A stretch of DNA of 50,720 nucleotides from a virus, in IMG/VR virus record IMGVR_UViG_3300027777_000052, positions 1 through 50,720 of that record. One strand, given 5' to 3'. How positions within the stretch are numbered: position 1 is the first letter of the stretch; each line of letters starts with the position of its first letter. Below the pieces are notes generated by a model. The model saw only the letters and a list, made by a program, of their open reading frames with translations, had not been told where the DNA came from and searched no databases. Shown in pieces: positions 1,660 to 31,385 of the stretch. Both the position numbers and the translations under genes were made by a program.

Positions 1660-2178
1660 TTATTGTTGACTTATATATTCTGAATCAAAAATTATTTTAA
1701 TCCCTGTTTTTGATGTTATGTTCTCTTTGAAATAATCGTTTATACCCCACTGAACCTCGTCACTAATTTCCCATCCGTAATCATCATCATTTAATGCGTC
1801 CTCTAATGTTCTATTTTCATTGTTACCAAGAGTAACACTTCCACCTAAATCATTAACCTTAACACTAACAACTACATTGGGTTTTTTTTCATCCAATTCC
1901 CAATAATCAATGTCATCCACCTCAAAAAAGAAATCATATCCACCATATTCATCTATATGATGTGGGTTCTGAAGTAATAAGGTTTTGGCAAGTTCTTTTG
2001 ATTCTTCCTCACCTCTCCACTCAATTAAGTATTTGTAAGCTTCATCGTAACTAGTAATACCCTCTCTATTATCCAACTTAAACATATTGATAAATTGATT
2101 GTCAATTTCACCCCCAAACTTATCAAAGTATTTGAATATAAAGTTCTTATATCTAGACTCCGTTATTATTAATTTCAT
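1660..2178 (-). CDS. Protein with N-terminal ITES tag, unknown function
   Basis: 172 residues beginning MKLIITESRYKNFIF. The K-L-I-I-T-E-S start is shared, with variations, by several unrelated proteins here (5440-6363, 6831-7151, 9705-11111, 15296-16660, 21600-22994). In T4-like phages short N-termini ending in (I/L)-x-E are capsid-targeting sequences cut by the prohead protease, so this may be a packaged protein; that is inference. The remainder is acidic with a Gly/Asp-rich region and no known domain. First gene of the operon running to 255; divergent from the DUF6915 gene. Confidence 0.8.
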   Translation of the reverse strand: MKLIITESRYKNFIFKYFDKFGGEIDNQFINMFKLDNREGITSYDEAYKYLIEWRGEEESKELAKTLLLQNPHHIDEYGGYDFFFEVDDIDYWELDEKKPNVVVSVKVNDLGGSVTLGNNENRTLEDALNDDDYGWEISDEVQWGINDYFKENITSKTGIKIIFDSEYISQQ

Positions 2179-2204
2179 TCTTTTCTATGCAGTAATTTTA
2201 ATTA

Positions 2205-2216
2205 TAATTATAAATA
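2205..2216 (+). promoter_or_regulatory. TATAAATA element upstream of DUF6915 gene
   Basis: TATAAATA at 2209-2216 ends 15 nt before the ATG at 2232. It matches the T4 late promoter core literally, but most putative late motifs in this window read ATATTTATAA in the direction of the gene, so the assignment is tentative. Confidence 0.3.
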
Positions 2217-2231
2217 GTTAAAACTACAGAA

Positions 2232-2582
2232 ATGGCTCACCCACTTTTACATTCAAAATCATCCGCTAAAAAATTTGGTGGTATTCCGGAGGATTATATC
2301 CATTTACATAATTGGTTAGACGAAACCAAAGCTTGGTATGGTCACTCATTACATAGAATGTGGAGACATCATTCTGAGGGTATATTTGAGATGGAACGAC
2401 TCTTTGGTCAATCATTTCTGAATAGTGATGGAAAAATTGTTTACACTCGTTATGTGGGTGAACAACACGTTAAAGAAGATTGTTATAATTACTTGCCTAG
2501 TGCTAAAGAATGGATACAAGCAATTGAGTCAAAAGAAAAACCGGTTTGGATGATACGGACATTAGATATTAATGTAGATTAA
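2232..2582 (+). CDS. DUF6915 family protein
   Basis: 116 residues with the conserved pattern of a small family found in bacteria and phages (DUF6915 from memory): an MAHPLLHSKSSAKKFGG start, an HNWLDETK segment, a His-rich RMWRHHSEGIF helix, and YVGEQHVKEDCYNYLPS. The many conserved His, Trp and Asp residues suggest a metal site, but the function is unknown. No signal peptide. It is transcribed divergently from the 255-2178 operon and followed after 22 nt by another plus-strand gene. The family call is strong; function cannot be given. Confidence 0.85.
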   Translation: MAHPLLHSKSSAKKFGGIPEDYIHLHNWLDETKAWYGHSLHRMWRHHSEGIFEMERLFGQSFLNSDGKIVYTRYVGEQHVKEDCYNYLPSAKEWIQAIESKEKPVWMIRTLDINVD

Positions 2583-2583
2583 C

Positions 2584-2598
2584 ATATTTATAATAAAA
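2584..2598 (+). promoter_or_regulatory. Putative late promoter (ATATTTATAATAAAA)
   Basis: Full match to the motif that precedes tagged and mobile genes in this window; it ends 6 nt before the ATG at 2605 and starts at the stop codon of the gene at 2232-2582. Confidence 0.5.
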
Positions 2599-2604
2599 AG
2601 ATTT

Positions 2605-3306: not shown

Positions 3307-3312
3307 AAATAC

Positions 3313-3720: not shown

Positions 3721-3721
3721 A

Positions 3722-5420: not shown

Positions 5421-5441
5421 AAAGGAACTAAATGTTCCTTT
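5421..5441 (-). terminator. Terminator hairpin overlapping stop codon
   Basis: AAAGGAAC (5421-5428) pairs with GTTCCTTT (5434-5441). The stop codon of the gene at 5440-6363 lies at the base of the stem; the minus-strand T-run follows directly. Confidence 0.75.
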
Positions 5442-6363
5442 AATTTAATAATTCTATTTCTGTGTTACTATCCGTTAAGTAGGATGGATAAGTTCTTAGT
5501 ATGTCCTGTTTAATTGTTTTCATAATACCATCTAATAGTTCGGGGTTGTCTCTAAAGTTGGAATCCGGAATCATTTTTCTATCAATCATTTTACCAGCTT
5601 TAAGAACTTGAATAGATAATTTAATCTTACCATCAACTTCTTCAACATCTTTAATCATAAAATTAACTCTATGAGCATTGTCTCCCCAACCTCCACTAAT
5701 TAATTTTGATTGATTGGTTACTTTATCTTTACGACTAACAAAGTTTGAAATTCTATCTGTATTAACTCGTTCAAGATTATAACGACCATCTATAAGACGT
5801 TCCATCTCACCTTTAGTCACACTTACAACATCTGATTTTAAATTTGAATCATATTTAACAGGATTCACCTGACTCATTTGTTTTCTAGTTGAGGGTGAAT
5901 AAGTATCTAATGTTCTATACCATTGGTCATTAATAAATAAAAACACAGGATAGTATCCGTATGATTTAATTTCGTAATACCAATCATTGTTATTATTCAC
6001 ATTCCACTGTCCTTCAACATTTGACCCCTTAAACGGCATCTTAGCTGTTGCATACTCATAAGCAGTATTGTTAGTAACCTTTCTTTGTTTGAATTGTCTG
6101 TAGTCCTTAAAGTTTTCTTTTGTTAGGTTCTCGTAATCACCATCTGGTCTAAAGTTAGCCGTGTATATTTCATAATACATTGTTGCCTCATTTATTGGCA
6201 TTCCAAAGTATCTTAACATTTCTTTAATAAACTTAATCATCTCGTTTTTAGTACCAGCGTTTTGTTTATTGTCGTTAATGTATTTGAACAACAAAATCTC
6301 CTTCTTATTTAAGACAGGAGACTCTTGTTCTTCTTTTAATATACGTTTAATTAATTCTTTCAT
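5440..6363 (-). CDS. Hypothetical protein with N-terminal tag-like segment
   Basis: 307 residues. The start MKELIKRILKEEQESPVLN ends in a basic amphipathic helix followed by K-E-E, like the I-(K/V)-K-E end of the tag seen at 15296-16660 and 27603-29090, so it may be a virion-packaged protein (inference). The rest has Tyr/Asn-rich central sequence and a basic C-terminal half; no known domain. Packed 1 nt downstream of the Dps-like gene, in the probable operon 7151 to 5440. Confidence 0.75.
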   Translation of the reverse strand: MKELIKRILKEEQESPVLNKKEILLFKYINDNKQNAGTKNEMIKFIKEMLRYFGMPINEATMYYEIYTANFRPDGDYENLTKENFKDYRQFKQRKVTNNTAYEYATAKMPFKGSNVEGQWNVNNNNDWYYEIKSYGYYPVFLFINDQWYRTLDTYSPSTRKQMSQVNPVKYDSNLKSDVVSVTKGEMERLIDGRYNLERVNTDRISNFVSRKDKVTNQSKLISGGWGDNAHRVNFMIKDVEEVDGKIKLSIQVLKAGKMIDRKMIPDSNFRDNPELLDGIMKTIKQDILRTYPSYLTDSNTEIELLN

Positions 6364-6364
6364 T

Positions 6365-6829
6365 TTATTTTAAGAATCTCAATTTGTATAATGTAGAATA
6401 AAGTAATTCTTGGATTGTATCAATTTGATTTTGAATATATGATTCTTTAACACTTTTTCTATCTTTCTCAATAGCCAAGTCTAAAGCTTTAAAATATGAA
6501 ATTAATTGTTCAACATTTTTATAATCTTCAAGTTTAATTGTGTCATATCCGGTAATAATGTTGTGTTTTCCTTGATAACTTTCTACTAAACCGTCAGTTA
6601 AATCACCAATACCTTCATAAAATCCACCCAAAGCCATATGTTCAGCAAAAGATGATTGTGACTTTGTTTGCCAATGAAAAATGTGAACCTGAATTCTTGA
6701 ATGAAGTAATTTAGAAACCAATTTATTGATATTACTTGTTTCAGTTTTTTCTTCTTTTTTAGTTTCCGATTCTTCTTGTTCTCTTAAAAACATATTTCTT
6801 TTTTTGAATTGCATTAAATTTTTTTCCAT
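6365..6829 (-). CDS. Dps/ferritin-like helical protein
   Basis: 154 residues. After a variable N-terminus (MFLREQEES, a possible L-R-E cleavage site) a ferritin-like core begins: LLHSRIQVHIFHWQTKSQS, then HMALGGFYEGIGDLTDGLVE and SYQGKHN. The H-x3-H-W-Q-T spacing and the D-x-x-D-x-L-V-E motif are those of Dps-type four-helix proteins (DUF5856-like in phages), where His, Asp and Glu bind iron. A role in protecting phage DNA or as a capsid-internal protein is possible. Second gene of the operon 7151 to 5440. Confidence 0.7.
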   Translation of the reverse strand: MEKNLMQFKKRNMFLREQEESETKKEEKTETSNINKLVSKLLHSRIQVHIFHWQTKSQSSFAEHMALGGFYEGIGDLTDGLVESYQGKHNIITGYDTIKLEDYKNVEQLISYFKALDLAIEKDRKSVKESYIQNQIDTIQELLYSTLYKLRFLK

Positions 6830-6830: not shown

Positions 6831-7151
6831 TTATTTTCCTATTATTAGGTCGTCAAACCCTAGTTTATTCATTCCACCAACTTCTTCATCGTCTTTTAGT
6901 TCGTCATACATATATGCTTTAACAACTGACGTAATACTTTGTTCCGCTTGGGCTATTTTACTTTCCATCCAATCGTCCAATTGAACATCACCCTCTTCTT
7001 CCATTTTCTCCCACATTTTTTCAGCCATTTTAGCGATGGTAAAAAGAAATTGTTTAGACATATAAGAACCACGACCCTCATCTTCTTTAATAGTTTTCAT
7101 TTTGGTAACCAACTTTTCAAGTTGTTTTTCTGTTAATATAATATCCTTCAT
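6831..7151 (-). CDS. Small helical protein with N-terminal LTE tag
   Basis: 106 residues from the ATG at 7151; an upstream in-frame ATG at 7184 would put the putative late promoter (7159-7172) inside the gene. It starts MKDIILTEKQLEKLVTKMKT, the clearest short form of the recurrent tag (I-L-T-E-x-x-L-x-x-L-V). The rest is helical and acidic with a WMESKIAQAEQSIT segment like small helical proteins of other large phages. Function unknown. First gene of the operon with the Dps-like protein. Confidence 0.8.
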   Translation of the reverse strand: MKDIILTEKQLEKLVTKMKTIKEDEGRGSYMSKQFLFTIAKMAEKMWEKMEEEGDVQLDDWMESKIAQAEQSITSVVKAYMYDELKDDEEVGGMNKLGFDDLIIGK

Positions 7152-8351: not shown

Positions 8352-8534
8352 TTAGAACGGACAATATTCTTTTTTTGGTTTTGGAATTAAATCCACATAT
8401 TCTTTTTTAATTTTTTCAGAAATAGCATTTCTGATAAACTTACTAACATCAATGTTATAAGATTTCATTTTTTGAAGTGTTTGTAGTTGGGTTTCTGAAA
8501 TACGGATAACTTTTGTTTTCGTGTATTTTTGCAT
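8352..8534 (-). CDS. Ribbon-helix-helix-like DNA-binding protein
   Basis: 60 residues, MQKYTKTKVIRISETQLQTL. The pattern is a short strand (TKVIRISE), a helix (TQLQTLQKMKSYN) and a second helix (DVSKFIRNAISEKIKKEY), as in Arc/MetJ-type ribbon-helix-helix repressors, followed by a Pro/Lys-rich tail. Such small proteins often regulate phage promoters; the target is unknown. It lies between the host-type promoter at 8304 and the 57-residue membrane protein gene. Confidence 0.65.
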   Translation of the reverse strand: MQKYTKTKVIRISETQLQTLQKMKSYNIDVSKFIRNAISEKIKKEYVDLIPKPKKEYCPF

Positions 8535-9366: not shown

Positions 9367-9714
9367 ATGGAATTAACTATAAACAAAAATAAATTTAAAG
9401 TCAAAACTGTCATCTCATCCAAAGACACTAGTCAAGGAATGATGAACAAAAAATTTGACGATACCTTTAATGGTATGTTATTTATTATGTCTGAAGGTCA
9501 ACACTGCTTTTGGATGAAGAATTGTATAACCAATCTTGATATAATCTTTATTGAAGATGATGTTATAACAAAAATTCACCACAACTGTCCCCCTTGTAAA
9601 ACCAAAGATTGTAGAAACTATTGTGGTGAAGGTGATATGATACTTGAACTTCAGGGTGGAACCTGTAAAAAATTAGGTATTAAATCCGGTGACAAAATTG
9701 TTCATCACGATTGA
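9367..9714 (+). CDS. DUF192 family protein
   Basis: 115 residues from the ATG at 9367; an upstream in-frame ATG (9349) would run through the promoter-like element. Typical DUF192 features are present: SSKDTSQGMMNKKFDD, FIMSEGQHCFWMKNC, NLDIIFIEDDVITKIHHN and the C-terminal LELQGGTCKKLGIKSGD. Bacterial members are usually exported, but no signal peptide is visible here. Extra Cys residues (CPPC, CRNYC) distinguish it. Function of the family is unknown. Its 3' end overlaps the convergent DHH gene by 10 nt. Confidence 0.85.
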   Translation: MELTINKNKFKVKTVISSKDTSQGMMNKKFDDTFNGMLFIMSEGQHCFWMKNCITNLDIIFIEDDVITKIHHNCPPCKTKDCRNYCGEGDMILELQGGTCKKLGIKSGDKIVHHD

Positions 9715-11111
9715 TTTATCTTCTCCTGTAATAATTTTACAAACTCATTCTGAATCATTTTAGTAAATTTAACATAAGGTGAGTCCTCCGAATCAGGATT
9801 GTATTTATAATTCCCTTTTGGTGGTCTATTACTTCTACCCATAAAGTTTAAACCCGATATGTTTGTAATACATTTATGTCCTCCACTATTTGCTTGAATA
9901 AAATCCCAAGCATTAACTTTAATATTGTCCAACATTTCTCTATGTTCTTCAGGTAATTCAGAAAAAGGTTTCTCCATCATCTCACCGATATGAATTAATT
10001 CCTCTTTACCATCTTCCTTATTTTTATATTCCTTACCATATAAAGCAATAAAATCTTTAAATGTAAATCCTGTTGATTCCGGATTAAAATCTTTTGATGA
10101 TTCTGAAATCCATTTAATAGTTGATAATGGTATTTCTCTTTGTTTTAATTGGTCCTCCCATTTTGATAATACCTCTTGAGCAATCTCACCTAAGTTAACA
10201 CCTTTTAATTGACGCTCACTTTTGAATGGATTACAAGACGCTTGAACCAACCCTAATGGCCAAGCAATTACTATAAAGTCAGCCTCCGGATTATTTTTAA
10301 ACGGTGTATATCTATCGTATGAACCTGGTTTAAACATTGAACCACCACCATATTGAACAATGATGTTACCCAATACTTTAACATTAGGATTGTCTTGCAT
10401 TGATTTAACATACTCATCTTTATTTTTTTCAAGTTGGTCCGGTTTAGCATAACCTTTTTCAACCATTATTTTTTTAATAGTGTGAAGTATGTTTAATAAA
10501 GATGGACTACAATCCATTACCAATGTTTCTAAAAACCCTGGTTTATTTTTAAATGCCAATAATAGTTTGTTAACAACCAAACCCATTAACATTTTATTTT
10601 TTTCTAATGATTTGTCTTTATCTAACTTAAATAAATAAGATATAACTTCATCAACTGAAATGTTGTTAACAGCATAGTTTGCAGAATCTACAGTTGAAAT
10701 AAGTAATATATCTGAGGATGGAAATAACTCTTTTGGAGAAACAACCTGAGAGATTGTCTCAACATTTGAACGAGAGTGTCTGAATGATGTTGATTTAGTA
10801 TCTTCAGCCCCGGCTTGTCTGTCGTGGTGGTCAGTGTGAATTACAAACATTGGTTTTCCGTGAGCAAAATCAACTAACACCGGCATTGTATCACCTTGAG
10901 CATCATTTTTCTTAACAGCAAACTCTTTATCACCGTATTGAATAATATGAGCACCAACTACTTTAATACCATTGTTCTCAAGGTATTGTTTCATCGCAAT
11001 AGCTGTAGTCACACCATCTAAATCTTGGTGAAAATATATCTCAGCCTTTGGATATCGTTTAGCAAGAGCTTTGATATCTCTTAAACCACTTTCGGTTATA
11101 AGTTTTTTCAT
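9705..11111 (-). CDS. DHH-family phosphoesterase with N-terminal ITES tag
   Basis: 468 residues. H28-Q-D30-L-D32-G33 and D94-H-H-D97 match motifs of DHH/RecJ-type phosphoesterases, with DFAHG (81-85) between them; near the C-terminus NSGGHKCITNISGL recalls the GGH motif of DHHA1 domains. Likely a manganese-dependent exonuclease or oligo/cyclic-nucleotide phosphodiesterase. The catalytic domain follows immediately after MKKLITESGLRDIK, the same segment seen on other proteins here, which hints at packaging in the virion (inference). It starts at the stop of the peptidoglycan-binding-domain gene (11111), so the two are coupled. Confidence 0.85.
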   Translation of the reverse strand: MKKLITESGLRDIKALAKRYPKAEIYFHQDLDGVTTAIAMKQYLENNGIKVVGAHIIQYGDKEFAVKKNDAQGDTMPVLVDFAHGKPMFVIHTDHHDRQAGAEDTKSTSFRHSRSNVETISQVVSPKELFPSSDILLISTVDSANYAVNNISVDEVISYLFKLDKDKSLEKNKMLMGLVVNKLLLAFKNKPGFLETLVMDCSPSLLNILHTIKKIMVEKGYAKPDQLEKNKDEYVKSMQDNPNVKVLGNIIVQYGGGSMFKPGSYDRYTPFKNNPEADFIVIAWPLGLVQASCNPFKSERQLKGVNLGEIAQEVLSKWEDQLKQREIPLSTIKWISESSKDFNPESTGFTFKDFIALYGKEYKNKEDGKEELIHIGEMMEKPFSELPEEHREMLDNIKVNAWDFIQANSGGHKCITNISGLNFMGRSNRPPKGNYKYNPDSEDSPYVKFTKMIQNEFVKLLQEKINQS

Positions 11112-21241: not shown

Positions 21242-21259
21242 CAGGTTTATTTTGAACCA

Positions 21260-21291
21260 CAAAAGTAAGACATTAAATTTGAATATACAAA
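21260..21291 (-). promoter_or_regulatory. Host-type promoter TTTG-N20-TACTTTTG
   Basis: Minus strand TTTG at 21291-21288, 20-nt spacer, TACTTTTG at 21267-21260 (matches TAnnTTTG). The -33 box abuts the stop codon of the gene at 21292-21582. Confidence 0.75.
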
Positions 21292-21582: not shown

Positions 21583-21599
21583 AATAGTTTTTTTTTAAA

Positions 21600-22994: not shown

Positions 22995-23003
22995 TTTAAT
23001 TGT

Positions 23004-23018
23004 TTTTATTATAAATAT
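23004..23018 (-). promoter_or_regulatory. Putative late promoter (ATATTTATAATAAAA)
   Basis: Full-length match on the minus strand, ending 9 nt before the ATG at 22994. Confidence 0.55.
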
Positions 23019-23068
23019 TTGATTTTTGTAAATAATTCGTTAAACCCATTTACTTTTCTTTAACGGGA

Positions 23069-23099
23069 CAAAGATAACTCATTTTTTTTAATATCCAAA
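23069..23099 (-). promoter_or_regulatory. Host-type promoter TTTG-N19-TATCTTTG
   Basis: Minus strand TTTG at 23099-23096, 19-nt spacer, TATCTTTG at 23076-23069. The -33 box abuts the methylase stop codon. It lies 75 nt upstream of the ATG at 22994, with a second (late-type) element in between. Confidence 0.8.
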
Positions 23100-23948
23100 C
23101 TATTTTACGTAATTCATAATTAGAAGTTCTTCTCCCATATTTTGAGCTTTACCTTTCTTAGCCGCAGCCGCTTTAGCAAACTCTTTCTTCTCCCATACAT
23201 ATTGAAGTGGTGGGAACCAAGTGTGTAATTGTGGAAAATCATAATAAGATAATGAGAACTTACCTTGAATACCTTTCAAACAATCCGCTAACCTCTCGTG
23301 GTCCGCACTATCAAAGTCGTGGTTATTATAATAGTTCTCAGTCTTCCAATATGGAGGGTCAGCGTAAACATATGTAGATGGTCCATCATACTTTTGAATA
23401 ACTTCTTCAAAGTCCATATTCTCCACTTTAGTAATCTTTAAGAAATGTTCTACCCAATCCGGTTTAGATAACTTATCTCGGAATGTAAGATACTTTGATT
23501 TATATTTACCTTTTAGGTCAATGAAGTTACTTGTTTCAGGCTTAGACCCTGAGAATACTTGAGCCAATACATAAGCGTATTTTGCTGCAACAACATAATC
23601 ATAAGGTTCTACCTTGAAATTATCGGCGAATATTTCAGCCTGAAACCTGATGAATTGTTCTCTGTAAATGTCCGGTGTTGGAAACTCCCCTCTTTGTTGA
23701 CAAGGAATGTTATTCACTTCTTCCAATAATCTTTCCGGATTCTGAAGACATTGAAATAAATTGTAGTTAAGCGGATTAAAGTCGTTGTAGACAACTTCTT
23801 TTAAATTGGGGTATTGTTTTAAATCCATATTAAAGAATACCCAAAACATACCTGAAAATGGTTCTACGTATGTTTCAATGTCATTTGGTATAAATGGAAC
23901 AATCCATTTACCTATTTTAGATTTACCCCCGATGTATGATAATGCCAT
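23100..23948 (-). CDS. D12-class DNA adenine methylase (Dam-like)
   Basis: 282 residues. Motif X/I: YIGGKSKIGKWI and YVEPFSGMFWVFFN; VVYNDFN follows; motif IV is DPPY at 197-200 (YADPPYW). This alpha-class order is that of N6-adenine methylases such as Dam and M.EcoRV. The usual F-x-G-x-G is FSGMF, a variant. No restriction enzyme is adjacent, so it likely protects phage DNA or controls expression. Own host-type promoter 16 nt upstream. Confidence 0.92.
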   Translation of the reverse strand: MALSYIGGKSKIGKWIVPFIPNDIETYVEPFSGMFWVFFNMDLKQYPNLKEVVYNDFNPLNYNLFQCLQNPERLLEEVNNIPCQQRGEFPTPDIYREQFIRFQAEIFADNFKVEPYDYVVAAKYAYVLAQVFSGSKPETSNFIDLKGKYKSKYLTFRDKLSKPDWVEHFLKITKVENMDFEEVIQKYDGPSTYVYADPPYWKTENYYNNHDFDSADHERLADCLKGIQGKFSLSYYDFPQLHTWFPPLQYVWEKKEFAKAAAAKKGKAQNMGEELLIMNYVK

Positions 23949-23963
23949 AATTTTTCTTTTTTA

Positions 23964-23995
23964 CAAAGATAAGAAATAAAAAGTAAAAAAGCAAG
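23964..23995 (-). promoter_or_regulatory. Host-type promoter for methylase
   Basis: TATCTTTG on the minus strand at 23971-23964; the -33 region reads CTTG at 23995-23992 (20-nt spacer), a partial match. Confidence 0.7.
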
Positions 23996-24026
23996 TTTCT
24001 CTTTCAATTATTTTTTACTATATTTG
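23995..24026 (+). promoter_or_regulatory. Host-type promoter, plus strand
   Basis: TATATTTG at 24019-24026 matches TAnnTTTG, 16 nt before the ATG at 24043; the -33 region (GTTT near 23995) is a weak match. Divergent from the methylase promoter, with the two -33 regions touching. Confidence 0.6.
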
Positions 24027-24042
24027 TAGTAAATTAATATTT

Positions 24043-24267
24043 ATGAATATGAAAGAATCTATTGAAACTCAAATTATCGAAGAAAAAGATATTATTGACA
24101 TTACACCGGACCAACTAGAACAACCTGAAAAAGAATGTAAATCTTGTAAACAAAAAAAAATAACTAATAGTCAGTTGGCTATGGTAATTGCATCATTTTA
24201 TATATTATTCTCTTCAATATATGGAACAGTTAAATTAATCAAAGAATTAATTCACCTTATCCCTTAA
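24043..24267 (+). CDS. Small membrane protein with CxxC motif
   Basis: 74 residues. Acidic N-terminal half, C-K-S-C followed by a Lys-rich patch (KQKKITNSQ), then one hydrophobic segment (LAMVIASFYILFSSIYGTV) and a short tail. Likely anchored in the inner membrane with a cytoplasmic, possibly metal-binding N-terminus. Own promoter and a terminator directly after. Family not recognised. Confidence 0.7.
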   Translation: MNMKESIETQIIEEKDIIDITPDQLEQPEKECKSCKQKKITNSQLAMVIASFYILFSSIYGTVKLIKELIHLIP

Positions 24268-24273
24268 AAAAGA

Positions 24274-24292
24274 AACCCCTTTTATAGGGGTT
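24274..24292. terminator. Bidirectional terminator
   Basis: AACCCC (24274-24279) pairs with GGGGTT (24287-24292), loop TTTTATA, between the convergent genes at 24043 and 24291. Confidence 0.7.
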
Positions 24293-25202
24293 ATCTTTTA
24301 AATTTAACAAACAATTTAATATATAAATCACCTCTATTGTGATACCCTTTACCTTTAACTCTTAATGGTTTTGACGTATCAAATTCTCCCGGTAATTTAA
24401 TTGAAATCTCACCTAACGGATGTGGGACTTTAACAGTATCTTCTTTCAAGGAATTTAAATCAAAATAAGCGTTGTAAATTAAATCATCCATTGATTTTTC
24501 AAAATTATTTTCAGGAACAATTTTAATTCTAACAACTAAATTACCATACATACCATCTTTAAAATCCCCTTTACCTTGTACTCTTAAAAATTGACCTTCA
24601 TCTATACCATTTGGTAATTTAATAGATATTGTCTCTACATTAGATGTTGTAGTTTTTCCGTGACAAATTCCACAAGTTGTTTTATATGAAAATCCTCTAC
24701 CACCACAAGACCCACAACTTTGTCTTATAATTTGAGTAAATAATCCGGTCCCTATTTGTTGAGTAATAACTCCTTGTCCACCACAAGTAGAACAAGTTAT
24801 TCTTTCACCTCCGGACCCATTACATCCACCACAATTATGGTCTCTATTATATGTTATACTTTTTTCACCACCTTTATAAGATTCAACCGCACCAACAACA
24901 ACTTCAACTATTTTATCAGGAACTGCTCGTTTTCTTTGAGTGTGCATTTGATTAAACATATCCTCAAAAGGGTTAAATCCTCCACCACCCATATTAGCAA
25001 ATGGGTTCCTTCTTTGATTATCGTATTGACTTCGTTTATTTTCGTCACCTATCGTATCATACGCCTCCGAAATCTTTTTAAACTTATTTTCGTCACCCCC
25101 TTTATCCGGATGGTGCTCTACCGCTAACTTTCTATAAGCTTTCTTTATTTCGTCTTGTGAGGCATTTTCACTAACACCCAATATTTGATAAAAATCTTCC
25201 AT
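24291..25202 (-). CDS. dnaJ: DnaJ (type A/I Hsp40 co-chaperone)
   Basis: 303 residues. J domain at 1-62 with the catalytic H31-P-D33; Gly/Phe-rich linker ([18 protein letters not shown]); cysteine-rich zinc region at about 123-190 with four C-x-x-C-x-G-x-G-like repeats ([33 protein letters not shown]); then the substrate-binding C-terminal domains. Complete but shorter than bacterial DnaJ (about 370), mostly in the C-terminal part. Would recruit host DnaK for folding or remodelling of phage complexes. A full zinc-finger DnaJ is uncommon in phages. No DnaK or GrpE is seen in the window. Confidence 0.95.
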
Positions 25203-25240
25203 TCTTTACTTAGTTTATATTTAAAGTTAAATTATATATT

Positions 25241-25885
25241 ATGAATTATTTAATTGTTCTATTCAAAAATAAAGTAAAAAAGAAAATAATCAAGAAGTTT
25301 AAGACCTCAAATAGAGCGAATACTTTCTACGAATCTTTATTATTGGAAAGTGGTAATGTTATTTTTGATAAACAATATGAAAACGGATTCTCCTTTAATT
25401 ATGAAATTGCCCTACTTGAAAAAGTGTCGGGAACTTTTTTACCTGTATTTTTAAAAGATGAATTTGGTAGAAATATTAAAGTAAATTTAGATAATGAAGA
25501 TTTTTCTATAAAAAAAATAAACCCATACCATATCGAAGAATTAATTTTAGATACTACATTAAATAAAAAAATAAACTCAAAAGAGTTTATTAGGTTATAT
25601 TTAGACCCACCCGGATTTAAACTAGTTTCTAAATTAAATAATAAAATTGTTGTTCAAATTGACGATAAATTTAATTTATTTACATTAAAAAATGAATATG
25701 ATTCAAGTAGGTTTATTGATTCAATTTCTGAGTTTTTTATTGAACAAAAACGTTTTGACTGTATGTTTGTTAAAGATTACTCAAATGCTCAAAGAAAATA
25801 TCTTTATAACTTATTAGTTGAAAATGGTTTTTCTAAGTCTTACTTACAACGTCAGACAACGACCCATCCTTCAATAAAAACATAA
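25241..25885 (+). CDS. Conserved phage protein of unknown function
   Basis: 214 residues, start MNYLIVLFKNKVKKKIIKKF, then TSNRANTFYESLLLESGNVI and FDKQYENGFSFNYEIALLE. I recognise this N-terminal pattern from uncharacterised proteins of Bacteroidota phages. Basic strand-helix N-terminus, no signal peptide. The last 53 nt overlap the convergent gene at 25833-26087, an unusually long tail-to-tail overlap. Confidence 0.75.
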   Translation: MNYLIVLFKNKVKKKIIKKFKTSNRANTFYESLLLESGNVIFDKQYENGFSFNYEIALLEKVSGTFLPVFLKDEFGRNIKVNLDNEDFSIKKINPYHIEELILDTTLNKKINSKEFIRLYLDPPGFKLVSKLNNKIVVQIDDKFNLFTLKNEYDSSRFIDSISEFFIEQKRFDCMFVKDYSNAQRKYLYNLLVENGFSKSYLQRQTTTHPSIKT

Positions 25886-26087
25886 ACTCAACTCCGGACA
25901 TATCTATTTTAAACTGATTAAAGTTCCTATCAACATCTCTAAAATTTTTTTGAACTTTTTTATAATCGTCATAACTAAGTTCCATAGCAACAGCCATAGT
26001 CCCATCCGGAAATAATGTTTGTAATCCATCAGCAACAAGAGCTAATTTCTCAATTATCCCATCAATACTTTGTGTAGTCTCTCCCAT
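25833..26087 (-). CDS. Hypothetical protein
   Basis: 84 residues: MGETTQSIDGIIEKLALVAD, with a strand-turn region (PDGTMAVAMELSYDDYKKV) and FMFLLKDGS near the end. Overlaps the upstream gene by 34 nt and the convergent gene by 53 nt. No recognised domain. Position within a run of five small minus-strand genes suggests one operon. Confidence 0.65.
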   Translation of the reverse strand: MGETTQSIDGIIEKLALVADGLQTLFPDGTMAVAMELSYDDYKKVQKNFRDVDRNFNQFKIDMSGVEFMFLLKDGSLSDVVSKT

Positions 26088-26254
26088 AATGTTAATTTTT
26101 TAGGTTGTTCAATCGGTTTAGTAACAATATCTTCCTTATTTATTTTTTTAATTGTCTTAATAAAATCTTCTTTTTCTCTGTTTAAAATAATTTGATTCTT
26201 AACAATTTCTTTATTCAGTAACTCCAGTTCCTTTAACTCCTTCTTCTCCATCAT
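26054..26254 (-). CDS. Small coiled-coil protein
   Basis: 66 residues starting MMEKKELKELELLNKEIVKN; a continuous charged helix to about residue 42 and then LTLWERLHKVLMG. Overlaps both neighbours (44 nt upstream, 34 nt downstream). Coiled-coil adaptor or membrane-proximal role possible; no family recognised. Confidence 0.6.
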   Translation of the reverse strand: MMEKKELKELELLNKEIVKNQIILNREKEDFIKTIKKINKEDIVTKPIEQPKKLTLWERLHKVLMG

Positions 26255-26642
26255 CTAATTTTATTTTATTTACTTTTGGTTTCATCTCAAAACTTAAATC
26301 TTTTAAATTATTTAAATTTTGTTTTTCAAAGATAGATTTTAATTCGTTAACTTTATTTTGAAATAATCTATCTTTTTCTTCTAATTCAAGATTATATCTA
26401 ATAATATTTTTAAGGTTATCTGAAATTATTCCAACACTTTCTTCCGATATTTCAGACACAAAAGAAAAAAATCTATGATTCTCAACTTTACTAGTTTGTT
26501 CCATTACTTTTTCTTCATCTACGTATTTTTTAGGTAATTTCCAAGTTGTCGGAAAACTAACATCAAAACTTAAATAGTTTTCTAATTTTCTGACAGACTG
26601 TAAATAAGGTAAAAGAGATGAAAATTCTTTATATAAACTCAT
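26211..26642 (-). CDS. Conserved phage protein, SVRKLENYL type
   Basis: 143 residues, MSLYKEFSSLLPYLQSVRKL, then YLSFDVSFPTTWKLPKKYVD and a C-terminal coiled coil (LELEEKDRLFQNKVNELKSI). The N-terminal block is one I recall from uncharacterised proteins of Bacteroidota T4-like phages. Function unknown; cytoplasmic. Confidence 0.7.
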   Translation of the reverse strand: MSLYKEFSSLLPYLQSVRKLENYLSFDVSFPTTWKLPKKYVDEEKVMEQTSKVENHRFFSFVSEISEESVGIISDNLKNIIRYNLELEEKDRLFQNKVNELKSIFEKQNLNNLKDLSFEMKPKVNKIKLDDGEEGVKGTGVTE

Positions 26643-26644
26643 AA

Positions 26645-26833
26645 TTAATTTTTAATAATAAATGTTAAGCAATATGATATTGCAAATCCAAGAAACATAA
26701 GTTCCCATTTACCCCACACCATTTGTTTTGGCGGATTTGAAAATAGGGAACTTATTATTCTACCAACCGTTCTAAGAACAGTCAAAACAGAAAATATAAA
26801 TACAAATAAAAATACTGTATTAATGTTATCCAT
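26645..26833 (-). CDS. Small membrane protein
   Basis: 62 residues with two hydrophobic segments: about 5-22 (NTVFLFVFIFSVLTVLRTV) and 43-60 (WELMFLGFAISYCLTFI), joined by a basic loop. 2 nt between its stop-to-start neighbours on both sides. Role unknown; two-helix phage membrane proteins are often holin or antiholin-like, but there is no specific evidence. Confidence 0.65.
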   Translation of the reverse strand: MDNINTVFLFVFIFSVLTVLRTVGRIISSLFSNPPKQMVWGKWELMFLGFAISYCLTFIIKN

Positions 26834-26835
26834 TA

Positions 26836-27009
26836 TTAGTCTTTTTTTCTTTCAGATAAAATCTCTTTTCTTAGACTATCTAATAATTTTTTTAAATCCT
26901 GTGCAGATTTTCTAGCTCTTGTTCCGGCACTATTGTTACCACCAAAAAACTTTGTCGTGTCAACTGATAATTCTTCAACCAATGACTTAATTTGTTCTAA
27001 TGTTTCCAT
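26836..27009 (-). CDS. Hc1-like histone H1 homologue
   Basis: 57 residues, ATG 27009 to TAA 26836. METLEQIKSLVEELSVDTTK, then FFGGNNSAGTRARKSAQDLK and KLLDSLRKEILSERKKD. The pattern acidic helix, T-K-F-(F/Y)-x-x-x-N-x-A-G-T-R-x-R-K, then a Leu/Lys helix is that of the Hc1 (histone H1-like) family of Bacteroidota and Chlamydia, small DNA-binding proteins that compact nucleoids. In a phage it could condense DNA or alter host chromatin. Co-directional with the small gene run that follows. Confidence 0.8.
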   Translation of the reverse strand: METLEQIKSLVEELSVDTTKFFGGNNSAGTRARKSAQDLKKLLDSLRKEILSERKKD

Positions 27010-27090
27010 CTGAATAATTTTAGTTAATTTATTTTTTATAATACTGTAAAAGTAATTTTTTTTACCCTATAGTAAATACTAACAAGGTTT

Positions 27091-27555
27091 TTAATGATTT
27101 AAAGACTTATCTAATATTTTATAAATGGTTGTAATCATATCTAAATCAGATTTAGTAAATGATTTTTCATTGTTAAATAAGTCAGTAAAAAAAAATCCTA
27201 TGGATGATTTAACTTTAATATCTTTTTGATGGTAAAATGTTTCATCAAAAAAAGATTCAAAATAATCAAAATGTTCACCTTTTTTATCAAATTTGATATT
27301 TTCCTTACTGAAATTATCAATGATTTTATTCCAACACCATTCAAAATGATTTCTATCATCATTTTCCGTTAAAATGATTTTAGTTTCATTAACCTCACTT
27401 TCACCTAAGTAAGTGTTAAAAATAAGATTATTAAGTGAATGTGTGAAATCAGAATATAATTCCAATTTTTCAGGAATTATATTATTACTTCGGAACCAAA
27501 CGTCAACGTCTTCCCGTAATAAAGGTTTTGATATGTAGTTAAAAAAATTCTCCAT
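27091..27555 (-). CDS. Conserved phage protein, start codon in hairpin
   Basis: 154 residues, MENFFNYISKPLLREDVDVW, then HFEWCWNKIIDNFSKENIKF and EHFDYFESFFDETFYHQK. Aromatic- and acid-rich, helical; similar uncharacterised proteins occur in Bacteroidota phages. L-L-R-E near the N-terminus recalls the tag sites but may be chance. Its first codons coincide with a terminator-like hairpin (27548-27574), so the gene may be expressed only by read-through or be attenuated. Confidence 0.75.
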   Translation of the reverse strand: MENFFNYISKPLLREDVDVWFRSNNIIPEKLELYSDFTHSLNNLIFNTYLGESEVNETKIILTENDDRNHFEWCWNKIIDNFSKENIKFDKKGEHFDYFESFFDETFYHQKDIKVKSSIGFFFTDLFNNEKSFTKSDLDMITTIYKILDKSLNH

Positions 27556-27574
27556 AGAGTTCGTCTATGGAGAA
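27548..27574 (-). terminator. 11-bp hairpin over a start codon
   Basis: TTCTCCATAGA and TCTATGGAGAA form a perfect 11-bp inverted repeat with a 5-nt loop. On the minus strand it is followed by a T7 run, as in a terminator of the gene at 27603-29090; the ATG of 27091-27555 lies in the second arm. Confidence 0.75.
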
Positions 27575-27602
27575 ATTATAAGTTATAATATTTGTTTGTA
27601 AA

Positions 27603-29090
27603 TTATTGAGTTTTTTGATTGTAACCAATTAAAGATTTCATTCTAGCAAACTCTTCATTAATTTGTTTTTGTTTTTTAACTTCAATGGATTCTAATTTAG
27701 CCATTAATTTATCCCCTTCATCTTCACCTGCAGTATCTTTAATAATTGGTTGAGGAGCTTTGTTATAAGCCTTTTTCTTAATCTGACCTAAGATATTATC
27801 TTTTCTAATTTTATTACGTTTTTTATTAACATTAGATTCACCGGTGTTTGCCCACTCAGGATTATTACCTGTTCTTGAAGAACCTTCAATATTATCAGTA
27901 ACCCATTCTTCATTTGGATGGATTTCATCGTACACTAAATTTTCTTGTCCTGCAGCAGTTAAATTATCAACATACTCTTCAACAGCACCTGACGGGATAT
28001 ACGCTTTTTTACTCATTTTTTCTAATTCACCATTTCCTTTTGGGAATATTTTAGGGTTCATATCGTAATCACCTTTAGAACCATCTTTAAGGTAATCTTT
28101 CATTTTTTTGGTAACATCTTTAATGTAATCATTATTTTCTTTACCAGAACCATTGTGTGCTTTTTTATAAACTTCTAAACCTCTTGGAGAACCCCCCATT
28201 CCTTTAATGTTATTTTTTTCCGCAGGGTCCTTAACAATTTTATTTTTTTGCTCTTTAACAATTTTTTCAATTAAACTAATCATTTCACTTTCAGTCAATC
28301 TGTAAGATTCTTTAATATTTTTTTTGTGGTCAGCACCTTTATATGCTTTAATATTTTTAGCAAAGTTAGCTTGTTTAACTAATTTAGGGTCACCACTTTT
28401 TAATGCTTTCTCAATACAAGATTTAGTCACTTCTCCTCCACAATGTTTAGAGAAATCACCTTTAGTTCCTTTTTTCTCAATTTCTTTTTCTGCTTTCTGA
28501 ATAAAATTTTTACCTTCTTTAGTTTCAAATTTTTTACCGTCAACCTCAAAATTATCTTTACCTGTTTTTCTAGCTTGAGATAATGCACCAGTAAAGGCAT
28601 TACCTTCATCTGTTTCAGATTTTTTACTTTGTCTCAACATTTTGAAATCTTCAGCATCAATTTTATTGTTTTTATTTTTATCTAATCTTCTTTGACGACC
28701 TTTTAATGATTCAGTAATGTTAACACCTTGACACATTTCTTTAGTTACCGGGTCTTCTTTACCAAAATTTTCTATATGATATCTACAAGTTTTTTCTCTG
28801 TCTTCGTCAGTATTTTCCTCATCATTTTCAATATCGTCAATAGATTCATTCTCACCAACGTAGTCAAATTCATTATTGTTATTTAAATCTTGGAAATCGT
28901 GAATGTCTTCCTCCATTTCACCACCTTTATAACCACATTCATTACATTCACCTTCATACATAGTTCCACCACATTCACATACATTACCACCTTTTATTTT
29001 AGAAACAAGACTATCAGCCTTCTCTTCTAAAGTCTCTTTTAGAATTTTAGACACTAAATTATCTAAATAAGTTGTATTTAATTTTTTCAT
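27603..29090 (-). CDS. Tagged modular protein, probable virion component
   Basis: 495 residues, highly charged and Lys/Asn-rich. N-terminus MKKLNTTYLDNLVSKILKET is tag-like; a second, internal copy, RLTESEMISLIEKIVKE, is at 264-280. A small zinc ribbon (C38-x-C40, C49-x2-C52) follows the first tag. Two EF-hand-like loops are visible: D68-x-N70-x-N72-x-E74-F-D76 and D137-x-N139-x-N141-x-K143-I-D145-x2-D148. The C-terminus is INEEFARMKSLIGYNQ. I recognise this mosaic from large Bacteroidota phages; a virion or scaffold role is inferred. Late-type promoter 7 nt upstream. Confidence 0.75.
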   Translation of the reverse strand: MKKLNTTYLDNLVSKILKETLEEKADSLVSKIKGGNVCECGGTMYEGECNECGYKGGEMEEDIHDFQDLNNNNEFDYVGENESIDDIENDEENTDEDREKTCRYHIENFGKEDPVTKEMCQGVNITESLKGRQRRLDKNKNNKIDAEDFKMLRQSKKSETDEGNAFTGALSQARKTGKDNFEVDGKKFETKEGKNFIQKAEKEIEKKGTKGDFSKHCGGEVTKSCIEKALKSGDPKLVKQANFAKNIKAYKGADHKKNIKESYRLTESEMISLIEKIVKEQKNKIVKDPAEKNNIKGMGGSPRGLEVYKKAHNGSGKENNDYIKDVTKKMKDYLKDGSKGDYDMNPKIFPKGNGELEKMSKKAYIPSGAVEEYVDNLTAAGQENLVYDEIHPNEEWVTDNIEGSSRTGNNPEWANTGESNVNKKRNKIRKDNILGQIKKKAYNKAPQPIIKDTAGEDEGDKLMAKLESIEVKKQKQINEEFARMKSLIGYNQKTQ

Positions 29091-29097
29091 TTTTAGT

Positions 29098-29112
29098 TTT
29101 TATTATAAATAT
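29098..29112 (-). promoter_or_regulatory. Putative late promoter (ATATTTATAATAAAA)
   Basis: Full match on the minus strand, ending 7 nt before the ATG at 29090, placed between two probable virion genes. Confidence 0.6.
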
Positions 29113-29126
29113 ATTAGTTTTTAACT

Positions 29127-30089
29127 TTATTTCTTTGAAAAGGTATTTTCATATTCATAAGCAATAATTGTTTTAATAACATTTTCACTTATATTATGTC
29201 TCTTACTAATATTTTGAATAGCTTTCTTAACTTGTTCATTCTCAAATATTTTTAGAGCTTTAATATCCCCTTGATTACAATATGGAAATTTTTGACATTT
29301 CTTTTTAACCTGTACAAATTTTCCTCCAGGAATTTGTGTTTTCTTTTTACCACCCCAATCTTTCTTCTTTGTTGACTTAGCCCAAGCTGAAGTTGTTTCA
29401 TATGAACCCGATGCACCTGAACCTGTAGCCTCAGTCGCCTCAACTTTTTTGGTTTCACCACAAATACATTTAGATTTAACTCTATCACAAGAATCACAAT
29501 ATTCCTCCTTACCTTCTTTCACACAATTAGGGACCATTTTACCATTTTTATTTTTCATACCCTTTTGGTCATAACCTTTCCAACAATCCTCTTCCATTTC
29601 ACCTTTGATTGTTGAGAATAATGGACCTGAATAAGCTCCGGCTGAACTAGCACCTTGCTCCTTAGTTTCACCTTTATCTTTACCCGGTCTAGAGTATCTA
29701 TTTTTTTTAATAAATGGGTCAGACACAGTTACATTTGGTGTACCAAATTCATTATTTTTTTCTTTAAACTTTTTAAAATCCGGGTCTGTTTGTAAATCTT
29801 TTTGGAATTGTTTTTTCCCGCTTTTATTTTCACCCATAATAGGTAATGATGAAGTTAATTTACCAACCGGTTTATTTATGTTAGTTTTACCTACTAATTT
29901 GTCAACAATACCTTTTTTCATTGGTCTTTTAATTATTTTTAATTTCTTATTATTTTCAGGAATTTCATTTTTATATTCATTTGCAGCTAAAACAGCATCC
30001 ATACCACCATTTACAATAGTATTAGACTTACCCATTTCAGTAGACATAGCTTTTTTTAAATCCGACCCATAACTTTCTTTAACTTTCAT
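29127..30089 (-). CDS. Low-complexity probable virion protein
   Basis: 320 residues, basic. MKVKESYGSDLKKAMSTEMG at the start; then GASSAGAYSGPLFSTIKGE, a Cys-containing motif DCWKGYDQKGMKNKNGKMVP-NCV, a zinc-like cluster (EYCDSCDRVKSKCICG), EATGSGASGSYETTSAWAKS, and a conserved C-terminal block KFVQVKKKCQKFPYCNQGD and HNISENVIKTIIAYE. These modules recur in related phage proteins, whose role I do not know; similar composition to 27603-29090 suggests that they work together. Virion location is inferred. Confidence 0.7.
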   Translation of the reverse strand: MKVKESYGSDLKKAMSTEMGKSNTIVNGGMDAVLAANEYKNEIPENNKKLKIIKRPMKKGIVDKLVGKTNINKPVGKLTSSLPIMGENKSGKKQFQKDLQTDPDFKKFKEKNNEFGTPNVTVSDPFIKKNRYSRPGKDKGETKEQGASSAGAYSGPLFSTIKGEMEEDCWKGYDQKGMKNKNGKMVPNCVKEGKEEYCDSCDRVKSKCICGETKKVEATEATGSGASGSYETTSAWAKSTKKKDWGGKKKTQIPGGKFVQVKKKCQKFPYCNQGDIKALKIFENEQVKKAIQNISKRHNISENVIKTIIAYEYENTFSKK

Positions 30090-30092
30090 AAA

Positions 30093-30497
30093 TTATTTAA
30101 CTATTAATAGATATGAAGTAGATAACACTCCTAAGAATGCCGCCGCTTTATATAAAAAAGATTTAAATTTAACACCTTTTAATTCTTTTTGTAAATCTTT
30201 AGTCATTAGGTCGTATTGTGTTATTTGTAAATCTTTCTGACCTATAATAAATTGATTATTTTTGTCTTTCTTTTCTAATAAAAAAATGATTGTATCTTTT
30301 TGAACTTCTCTCTGCTCAACTTTACTTAGTTTTAATTGAGTTAATGATAACTCTTCTTTACACCCGTCAAACCTTAATAAGTCTTGATAGATTAATCTAG
30401 CTGTTTTAGTTGGAAGTACTACTTTGGTTGTATCTTGCTGCGAATAACTGCTCAAGCTCAACATTACCAAAGTTATTAACATTATTAACTTTTTCAT
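30093..30497 (-). CDS. Exported spanin-like protein
   Basis: 134 residues. A signal peptide is clear (MKKLIMLITLVMLSLSSYSQ), followed by a coiled-coil region (EELSLTQLKLSKVEQREVQK ...) and a C-terminal hydrophobic segment (SFLYKAAAFLGVLSTSYLLIV). No lipobox Cys, so it is not a standard o-spanin lipoprotein. The first 92 nt overlap the 3' end of the membrane-anchored coiled-coil gene at 30406-30771 in another frame, the classic Rz/Rz1 layout, and an amidase lies just upstream. A lysis role is likely but unproven. Confidence 0.65.
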   Translation of the reverse strand: MKKLIMLITLVMLSLSSYSQQDTTKVVLPTKTARLIYQDLLRFDGCKEELSLTQLKLSKVEQREVQKDTIIFLLEKKDKNNQFIIGQKDLQITQYDLMTKDLQKELKGVKFKSFLYKAAAFLGVLSTSYLLIVK

Positions 30498-30771
30498 TTG
30501 TTTTTTCTTTTACTATTGTTAAATTATTATCAATGTGATGAATTTCTTTAGTGATGTTGGTAACATTTTCTTTTACCTCCATAACTTTAGTATCTATTTG
30601 TTTATTAACCACTTGAGCTGAATCAACTTTAACTTGGATTCCCTCTATTTTCTTTTTATAACCACTAACGTCAGTTTTTATACCACTAGTTGTGAAAATA
30701 TTCCAACCAACCAAAACACCAACAATGATTAATAAAATTGTTTGACTATTACCTTTAGTTATATCTTTCAT
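30406..30771 (-). CDS. i-spanin-like membrane-anchored coiled coil
   Basis: 121 residues: short cytoplasmic start, one N-terminal membrane segment (TILLIIVGVLVGWNIFTT), then a long polar coiled coil predicted to lie in the periplasm (IEGIQVKVDSAQVVNKQI, ENVTNITKEIHHIDNNLTIV). This is the topology of i-spanins (Rz). The 3' end encodes the start of the exported partner in a different frame. Shares its start with the stop of the upstream tagged gene (position 30771). Confidence 0.65.
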   Translation of the reverse strand: MKDITKGNSQTILLIIVGVLVGWNIFTTSGIKTDVSGYKKKIEGIQVKVDSAQVVNKQIDTKVMEVKENVTNITKEIHHIDNNLTIVKEKTNEKVNNVNNFGNVELEQLFAARYNQSSTSN

Positions 30772-31385
30772 TATTCCTCAGTTTTAATTGTTTTTTTTCT
30801 TGAAGCTAAAACTCCCGCCCATTTTGATTTAAATTTTTCGTAGTAAGTTTTTAATTTACCAATTAAATTTAAAAATTCATCATCAACTTTTAACATTTCA
30901 CCATTAATATAAACACCATTTTCTTCCCCTATTGAAAAGAAAAATTCAATATCAAATTCTATTAAAGTACCTGACCATTCAACATTATTTGTGTATACAT
31001 TTAGTTTATTAAAATCTGCCATATCAGAAACACCCGAAACAAATTCATCCATAGTTTCTTGAAAAGCTATTTTTTCATCAGTAGTCAATTCTAAATCTGT
31101 TTGGTCTTTACCGTGTAAAACTAATAATCCGCCTGAAATTCGATAAGCTTGTTTTTTATCGTCTTCAGATTCTTCTTCATCATCTTCCGCAGTGTCATAA
31201 TCAATTTTATCTTGAACTGATTTAGTTACATTAATTTTTGAAGTTACATTATCGTCAGTTAGGTCAACACCTTGTTCTGTCAATAATCCGTATTGTCTAC
31301 GGATATCCTCATTAATAGTCTCATTATTTAATAATTTTCTTGAGGCTTCTAATAATTGTTTAATTTCATCGTGCGAATTATTCAT
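30771..31385 (-). CDS. Tagged protein with IRRQYGLLTEQ segment
   Basis: 204 residues. Near the N-terminus ASRKLLNNETINEDIRRQYG-LLTEQ parallels DIRSRYGLVNEQ in the peptidoglycan-binding-domain protein (11111-11470). An acidic linker (TAEDDEEESEDD) and a mixed alpha/beta C-terminal domain follow (YTNNVEWSGTLIEFDIEFFF). No catalytic motif. Overlaps the amidase gene by 8 nt and abuts the spanin-like gene. Because two unrelated proteins share the I-R-x-x-Y-G-L-x-x-E-Q segment, it is probably a targeting or processing signal. Confidence 0.75.
   Translation of the reverse strand: MNNSHDEIKQLLEASRKLLNNETINEDIRRQYGLLTEQGVDLTDDNVTSKINVTKSVQDKIDYDTAEDDEEESEDDKKQAYRISGGLLVLHGKDQTDLELTTDEKIAFQETMDEFVSGVSDMADFNKLNVYTNNVEWSGTLIEFDIEFFFSIGEENGVYINGEMLKVDDEFLNLIGKLKTYYEKFKSKWAGVLASRKKTIKTEE

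Follow-up and report, generated by a model that had tools for sequence, protein, structure and literature searches.

Short N-terminal tags ending in (I/L)-x-E on unrelated proteins of a viral contig and its large phage relatives: probable T4-like capsid-targeting propeptides

Tagged reading frames of the window

The IMG/VR record IMGVR_UViG_3300027777_000052 is a linear viral fragment of 50,720 bases, analysed here in its entirety as the window, and a number of its open reading frames (ORFs) encode proteins with unlike bodies that begin with a short stretch of one general kind, here called a tag. Six such ORFs had been named in a first-pass annotation, and all six are present with the N-termini that it gave: MKLIITES (1660-2178), MKDIILTEK (6831-7151), MKKLITES (9705-11111), MAKRFIISEE (11111-11470), MGRKLRLTES (15296-16660), and MKITKVLSNLITED (21600-22994). 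The tag-like starts that it noted for 5440-6363 (MKELIKRILKEE; MKELIKRILKE) and 27603-29090 are equally real, the latter with a second, inner copy, as is the sub-type IRxxYGL..EQ, of which 30771-31385 contains INEDIRRQYGLLTEQ. Its statement that the bodies are unrelated also held in a Pfam scan, where no family was common to the tagged ORFs: peptidoglycan-binding and DUF5856 domains scored above the cut-off, DHH, LRR_14, Phage_scaffold, and FlxA scored below it, and the remaining bodies gave none.

For comparison we used the IMG/VR records G001, G002, and G009-G012, together with G069, LR745206, LR756502, and the cultured Flavobacterium phage vB_FspM_immuto_2-6A (immuto), which grows on Flavobacterium sp. 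LMO8. G069 is a 308-kb relative in which 64 of the 78 window proteins were matched at a median identity of 88%, G011 has 47 of the 78 in common with the window at a median identity of 48%, and LR745206 is a 635-kb relative carrying tags unlike type A. Type A reads MKxI(I/K/R)LTES(E/Q/D)LxxLIxxVIxE, type B (F)ISEEEKxxIxSxYGLxNEQ, also INEEEKNRILNLHETATKRQYLSEQ, type C MNLQENIxRIKxMMGxIxE, and type D MKELIKKILREE, and the tags of LR745206 are MIKKYxxFIxE and MKYLKxFNES; (I/L)-x-E ends or lies within the tags, with the exception of the FNES form of LR745206. Genes were called as the longest ORF with a greedy overlap rule, so that some called starts are wrong, and inner ATGs of longer ORFs serve as the starts of 6831-7151 and 11111-11470. 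The inner start of 11111-11470 is supported by an ORF at 145414 of G001 that begins MAKRFIISED and is 36% identical to it over 126 residues; a G069 ORF starting MAKRFIITEE aligns with it over 25 residues only.

All of the tags lie on the minus strand (in the peptides below, a slash marks a candidate tag end). The tag MKLIITE/S (2158-2178) of ORF 1660-2178, a protein with no known fold, matches the type A profile described below, and its ITE is kept by the orthologues in G001, G002, G011, G012, and G069. ORF 6831-7151 carries MKDIILTE/K (7128-7151), a profile match with orthologues in five genomes, and ORF 9705-11111, of the DHH family (22.8 bits, under the Pfam cut-off of 28.1), carries MKKLITE/S (11091-11111), a profile match found again in 80 relatives. 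The type B tag MAKRFIISE/EEKNDIRSRYGLVNE/Q (11399-11470) of ORF 11111-11470, which has a peptidoglycan-binding domain, scores 9.3 bits with the profile and is shared with the G001 orthologue, while the type A tag MGRKLRLTE/SELYKVIKRIIKE/T (16595-16660) of ORF 15296-16660 scores 31.5 bits and has orthologues with varied tags. For ORF 21600-22994, which has a C-terminal part resembling leucine-rich repeats (below cut-off), the tag MKITKVLSNLITE/D (22956-22994) was missed by the type A profile, and the case rests on orthologues, which read LITE in G001 and G069, LIVE in G002, IILE in G011, and, by eye, LIIE in G012.

ORF 5440-6363 bears the type D tag MKELIKRILKE/E (6331-6363), with MKNLITKILKE in its G001 orthologue and MKELIKRILRE in that of G069; the G002 orthologue was called 82 residues longer and has IRVTEFDLVKIVKLIIKE at the corresponding place. 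A possible weak tag, ...MFLRE/QEE (6779-6829), stands on ORF 6365-6829 (DUF5856; PHROG: starvation-inducible regulator), where FLRE is kept in G001 and G069, the starts differ in G002 and LR745206, and the G009-G012 orthologues begin at the body. ORF 27603-29090 has tag-like sites at its start (MKKLNTTYLDNLVSKILKE/T, 29034-29090), in its middle (YRLTE/SEMISLIEKIVKE/Q, 28239-28316, a profile match kept in four of the five orthologues examined, G010 being the exception, and also in G069), and at its C-terminal end (INEEFARMKSLIGYNQKTQ, 27606-27665, by eye like type C tags and the scaffold C-terminus ENPQFLRMKDIMSKI); judging by these sites, this conserved protein could be a core protein that is cut into pieces. 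The start MKVKE/S (30075-30089) of ORF 29127-30089 may or may not be a tag, as its orthologues begin MKIKE/T in G002 and MLKE/S in G069 and have no such start in G001. A type B-like segment, INEDIRRQYGLLTE/Q (31275-31316), lies in ORF 30771-31385. ORF 27091-27555 was also tried as a tagged gene and was rejected because its (I/L)-x-E is not kept by orthologues.

Tag signal, tag exchange, and upstream element

A short N-terminal stretch common to unrelated proteins has strong statistics in the relatives and thin statistics in the window, where the evidence from the window alone is modest. There, the motif [IL][TS]E[SKED] gave 5 matches in the 1520 positions of residues 1-20 (76 ORFs) versus 5 in 8391 positions past residue 100. 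A profile built from G009-G012 gave 8 window matches of at least 7 bits, five of them N-terminal tags (15296, 6831, 9705, 1660, and 11111); the other three were the inner copy in 27603-29090 and matches in 40290-40547 and 8352-8534, which were judged to be chance. The same profile found one match of at least 10 bits in 11,739 residues of window ORFs not selected as genes. With a wider profile including G001 and G002, six of the eight window matches begin in residues 1-25 (13.6% of positions, P=1.4e-4), and the six include 8352.

Among the relatives, enrichment in G001, G002, and G009-G012 (15-19 N-terminal type A matches each in G001 and G009-G012, and 9 in G002) is partly circular because the profile seeds are their own N-termini, and the non-circular cases are the window with the G009-G012 profile, G069, and LR745206. 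On G069, 33 of the 36 matches of the type A profile seeded with G009-G012 fell within residues 1-25, which make up 10.8% of positions, with 2 matches in shuffled proteins, and on LR745206 none of its 4 matches was N-terminal. We also counted pairs of similar N-termini on unrelated bodies, defined as bodies without a blastp match at E 0.01 beyond residue 40, a rule under which remote paralogues may remain, for example in G012. Residues 41-69 and 61-89 served as controls, and signal peptides were taken out unless stated. The N-terminal pairs numbered 120 versus 9 and 11 in G069, 66 versus 8 and 14 in G012, 50 versus 9 and 6 in G010, 47 versus 9 and 9 in G009, 45 versus 7 and 9 in G001, 37 versus 2 and 4 in G011, and 10 versus 1 and 2 in immuto; with signal peptides kept, there were 592 versus 44 and 51 in LR745206 and 5 versus 1 and 0 in G002. 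Signal peptides were rejected as the cause of this likeness, since the effect persists once they are removed. Chance likeness in AT-rich proteins rich in lysine and isoleucine would agree with several window-only tests that were weak or negative, but its probability is practically negligible: shuffled proteins yield 0-3 matches per genome and inner segments several-fold fewer pairs, and by these controls chance is excluded in the relatives.

At the DNA level, a degenerate type A pattern was found in at least 120 IMG/VR stretches, many of which continue as LxxLIxxVIxE and a few of which do not; the pattern selects on the motif, and only the residues after it are independent. The tag consensus used as a tblastn query against phages gave no match.

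Homologous bodies bear different tags, or none, in different phages, from which we infer that the tags are modules that are gained, lost, and exchanged. The DHH protein begins MKKLITE/S in the window, MKKIISE/G in G011, MISKYNQFINE/E in LR745206, and MLRKYGQFINE/E in LR756502. An Acb1-like 2H phosphoesterase occurs with three tag types, MNLNEELSKMKSIMGINE/N in G001, MKDLIKKILKE/E in G012, and MKLKKYKQFIKE/S in LR745206, the body of the last being 39% identical to the G001 copy and to the G012 copy; with a Pfam Acb1 cut-off of 27 bits, G001 passes at 33.4, and G012 (20.4) and LR745206 (23.1) fall below. T4 57B (Acb1, 202.7 bits), whose domain starts at residue 9, is without such a tag. The poly(A)/CCA polymerase has a tag in LR745206 and G009 and none in G001, a further family begins MRLLELLRE/A in immuto, MKDLIRQILRE/E in G001, and MKFLEILEE/S in G009, and a protein with an FDWDDN motif is likewise among the homologous bodies with exchanged tags.

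Tagged genes also tend to have the element TATTTAT within 35 bases upstream (the regular expressions defining "tagged" in these and in the cargo counts below were made by us and contain false positives). In G009-G012 the element precedes 57 of 120 tagged versus 170 of 1033 other genes, and 12 of 20 head genes versus 0 of 27 early or metabolic genes; the counts for tagged and other genes were 20/51 and 58/300 in G069, 17/41 and 35/198 in G001, and 2/11 and 5/59 in the window. Such upstream copies, together with tandem arrays of tagged genes such as 173902-176968 of G001, could point to a spread at the level of DNA, with gene starts and promoter moved by recombination and no function of the peptide. 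We regard this as very unlikely, as codons vary while E, I/L, and S stay, and peptides that differ widely apart from a common (I/L)-x-E end swap on the same body. In G009-G012 and G069, TATTTAT prefers two distances before start codons (about 4-6 and 13-17 bases) and is perhaps a late promoter element; the structural genes of bS21 phages of Bacteroidetes are expressed late (PMC9723584; this source, PMC9026906, and PMC5694885 are cited throughout for the parts consulted).

Candidate cutting site, prohead protease, and core repeats

The DHH N-termini were compared at 80 loci, in a count made without restriction at P1. Glu occupies P1 in 80/80, P3 is I in 62, L in 17, and V in 1, and P1' is Ser in 79/80; among tag positions 1-8, variation is greatest at P2 (1.55 bits), and the codons of the tag vary (72 of the 80 loci, 8 being dropped, with P1 restricted by the search expression). 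The gp21 protease of T4 cleaves after L/I-x-E (PMC9026906), a rule that the end of the DHH tag fits because P1 and P3 are conserved and P2 is variable, and the tags of the window and its relatives share the (I/L)-x-E end of T4-type capsid-targeting sequences. The first 10 residues of the T4 internal protein IPIII suffice for packing, residues 4 and 7 serving mainly targeting and 8 and 10 cutting (PMC9026906). IPII and IPIII start MKTYQEFIAE, and the LR745206 tags keep the Y-x-x-F-I-x-E spacing. The capsid propeptides of the relatives end INE/A, INE/S, VSE/A, and INE/N at the column of FLTE65/A in T4 gp23, the propeptide of which is 65 residues long (PMC5694885).

The first-pass annotation had looked to a gp21-like prohead protease elsewhere in the genome, and this expectation was borne out in five larger relatives: G068, G069, G071, G076, and G077 carry on the same contig S77 and a full-length DHH gene whose product is 80-94% identical to that of the window. 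These came from a search through a neighbour gene of G001, covering 25 of the 80 loci of that gene, in which 21 of the 25 linked records contained S77; seven of the 25 match the DHH query, the other two being G090, which carries S77 plus an incomplete DHH at the contig end, and G080, with DHH and no S77. S77 (PF03420) scores 94.2 bits in G011, with invariant H95 and S158-S159-R160, which we take to be the catalytic residues. Of 29 large records, 12 yielded an S77 match over the Pfam threshold; those of LR745206 and LR756502 fell short of this value.

By similarity to G011, genes for terminase, portal, protease, scaffold, and capsid were assigned in G069. Pfam identified S77, Gp23, and Portal_T4 in G011, Gp23 in LR745206, and Gp23 along with S77 in immuto. 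In G001 and G002, a search with profiles for S77, terminase, portal, scaffold, and capsid gave no convincing match. A bS21 gene detected by Pfam lies on the opposite strand within the head module at 194471-194755 of G011 and 63366-63557 of G009, by eye without a tag. The same neighbourhood, with bS21 on the opposite strand within the terminase-portal-protease-capsid region, is found in bS21 phages of freshwater Bacteroidetes (PMC9723584), for which it was suggested that bS21 itself might be packed; the consulted parts of that paper contain no mention of tags. At 102-119 kb of immuto (L301-L303), next to its S77 gene and directly before its T4-like head genes, lies a block of proteins with tags of their own (MKKSQLRxIIKEEL, MENFDLKKFLVENKLT, and MKKQILSEQFRRMQKLAGIITE), annotated mainly as hypothetical and with some enzyme names.

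In LR745206, one fusion protein (198546-200669, across L005/L006) joins S77 to a long scaffold-like part in which about 12 tag-like repeats of 14 residues occur. A profile of 24 N-terminal tags of LR745206 was run against the residues past 40 of the LR745206 proteins. As a hidden Markov model (HMM), it placed the fusion at the top with 26.1 bits over 12 places, mostly 14 apart (YSEYIAENLDKNIA), the next protein scoring 6.2. As a plain matrix, it gave 12 matches of at least 6 bits in the fusion and 3 in the next protein, with best single matches of 14.4 versus 13.3, and among 300 column-permuted profiles none gave the fusion 12 (mean 0.59, highest 10), although the fusion still ranked first with 11 of the 300. 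Based on this match, the LR745206 tag seems to duplicate the repeat that the core itself carries.

These results bear on the idea that the tag directs docking or sorting at some other phage structure, such as a replication factory, a membrane site, or the tail, and that (I/L)-x-E stays uncut. In many type A tags the residues after the first LTE are also conserved, which docking alone would explain, and tag cleavage is a prediction from sequence. However, conservation falls precisely on the P3 and P1 positions of the gp21 rule and leaves P2 free, the LR745206 tag resembles a repeat of the phage's own prohead protease-scaffold protein, and the upstream element is common to tagged and head genes; we therefore consider a docking signal of this kind unlikely.

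Probable head targeting and predicted cargo

The tags are probably T4-like capsid-targeting propeptides. The head-targeting role proposed by the first-pass annotation is supported in the sense of "works like" by tag exchange, the (I/L)-x-E end, the repeats of one protease-scaffold protein, and the upstream element. We infer a sequence of events in which a late tagged protein would dock through a helical tag on the prohead core, made of scaffold and S77, before the shell closes; a gp21-type protease would then cut after (I/L)-x-E, releasing the mature protein within the head. It would be packed there alongside the DNA and, in the next infection, probably injected. Tag dialects may differ from one phage lineage to another, each set by the lineage's own core proteins, in which case a gene moving between lineages would change its tag.

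Tags as such are known from T4; new here are the tag sequences and the many more tagged proteins per genome. The internal proteins IPI, IPII, and IPIII, Alt, and the gp24 propeptide of T4 likewise combine a short N-terminal propeptide ending in (I/L)-x-E with unrelated bodies, and T4 likewise has a head module with an S77 protease (gp21), Gp23, and gp20. The tags of LR745206 keep the spacing of Tyr4, Phe7, Ile8, and Glu10, and type D tags by eye resemble the gp24 start MAKINELLRES. In contrast to T4, the window tags differ in sequence (LTESxL.., ISEEEK..YGLLNEQ, ILKEE), strict counting gives 7-62 tagged proteins per record instead of a handful, and the window group has inner and possibly C-terminal copies, with cutting of the tags being predicted. 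That T4-like phages may take up various proteins by such tags has been suggested (PMC9026906). The giant phages phiKZ, 201phi2-1, and SPN3US (gp175/gp245 proteases) also load their heads with proteins that are cleaved on the C-terminal side of Glu and eject them (PMC5694885, PMC9026906), but the motifs, S/A-x-E in phiKZ and A-x-E in SPN3US, are unlike (I/L)-x-E; several SPN3US propeptides exceed 100 residues, and the consulted parts of these papers report identical short starts for gp53 and gp54 rather than for tens of proteins with unrelated bodies. Titles and abstract openings of the literature on the capsid targeting sequence included none describing the present tags and no title naming Bacteroidetes phages; part of this literature deals with the giant Salmonella phage SPN3US.

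Several observations weigh against head targeting. In the window, a loose [IL]xE near the N-terminus occurs in 21 of 52 proteins versus 13, 13, and 12 in control stretches, a mild enrichment, and the pairwise test on 52 proteins gave 0 N-terminal pairs with controls of 0 and 2; in G002 the loose motif is not enriched at N-termini (23 versus 29, 21, and 26). The window tags by eye lack the Tyr4/Phe7 pattern of the IPIII tag, so that the data support "works like a T4 tag" and not "homologous to a T4 tag". The core likeness in the window group, between the scaffold C-terminus and type C tags or the end of 27603-29090, was seen by eye only, and when the repeat test was run with the HMM, the single repeats of the LR745206 fusion all scored at most 4.0 bits, with single matches up to 6.2 in other proteins. 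TATTTAT precedes no major capsid protein gene among the G009-G012 head genes, occurs at 2 of 5 head genes in G069 and 1 of 4 in immuto, and shows no enrichment at the tagged genes of G002 (2/13 versus 21/111) or LR745206 (5/139 versus 17/723). Heads with 7-62 cargo proteins per record would be unusual, and no virion proteome or N-terminal peptide data of a tagged phage were found in the literature searched.

S77, moreover, was reached only through other contigs, by way of the G001 neighbour gene: it is absent from the window fragment and from 50 other DHH-bearing records, one of them 214 kb, in a search covering 50 of the 80 DHH loci. This lack of a prohead protease would also suit a degradation or processing signal for some other protease, unrelated to the head, an explanation that we hold to be exceedingly unlikely given that larger relatives with the same genes have S77, whose motif fits.

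The strict counts of tagged proteins were 22/239 in G001, 7/124 in G002, 14/336 in G009, 18/284 in G010, 13/242 in G011, 20/291 in G012, and 62/862 in LR745206; ten replication, metabolic, and other marker genes of the window included 0 strictly tagged ones and two with a loose [IL]xE near the start. Pfam was run on the strictly tagged proteins of at least 110 residues lying within one sequence piece, 75 of 94 in the six IMG/VR records and 53 of 62 in LR745206, and named 22 families among the 75 and 15 among the 53. The cargo predicted in this way includes Acb1-like proteins (an anti-CBASS, or cyclic oligonucleotide-based antiphage signaling system, family), DHH and HD proteins, poly(A)/CCA polymerase, RNA ligase, methyltransferase, and cell-wall enzymes.

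The proteins that giant phages inject with their DNA are mostly unknown. As a tentative extension that goes well beyond head targeting itself, large Bacteroidetes phages might carry an address code, in which each tag type copies another segment of the core (a protease-scaffold repeat, the scaffold C-terminus, or a small core protein) and tens to more than 100 proteins, including counter-defence enzymes such as the Acb1-like ones, are loaded per head. If so, the set of injected proteins could be read from the genome. Should the tags be head-loading labels at all, a simple profile would predict the cargo of uncultured phages, and the tags would offer compact, transferable labels for bringing proteins into phage heads. 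Their exchange on homologous bodies shows that a gene passing to another phage lineage takes on another label.

At the other end of the LR745206 proteins, many sequences end like IRDxKIxxIL(D/N), with 295 C-terminal pairs versus 44-51 for the inner segments; the single-linkage cluster of these C-termini was set aside as partly noise, and only the IRDxKIxxIL tail looks real. Comparison of the DNA of window positions 20000-40000 with annotated phages gave only one match, of 66 bases (86%), which lies in 38534-39259 and maps immediately ahead of S77 in LR745206. That ORF and 43565-44260 are HNH-like endonuclease genes, and 18456-19124 is GIY-YIG-like, all as judged by eye. Two large proteins with threonine-proline repeats, probably of the tail or fibre, are encoded at 44739-48992.

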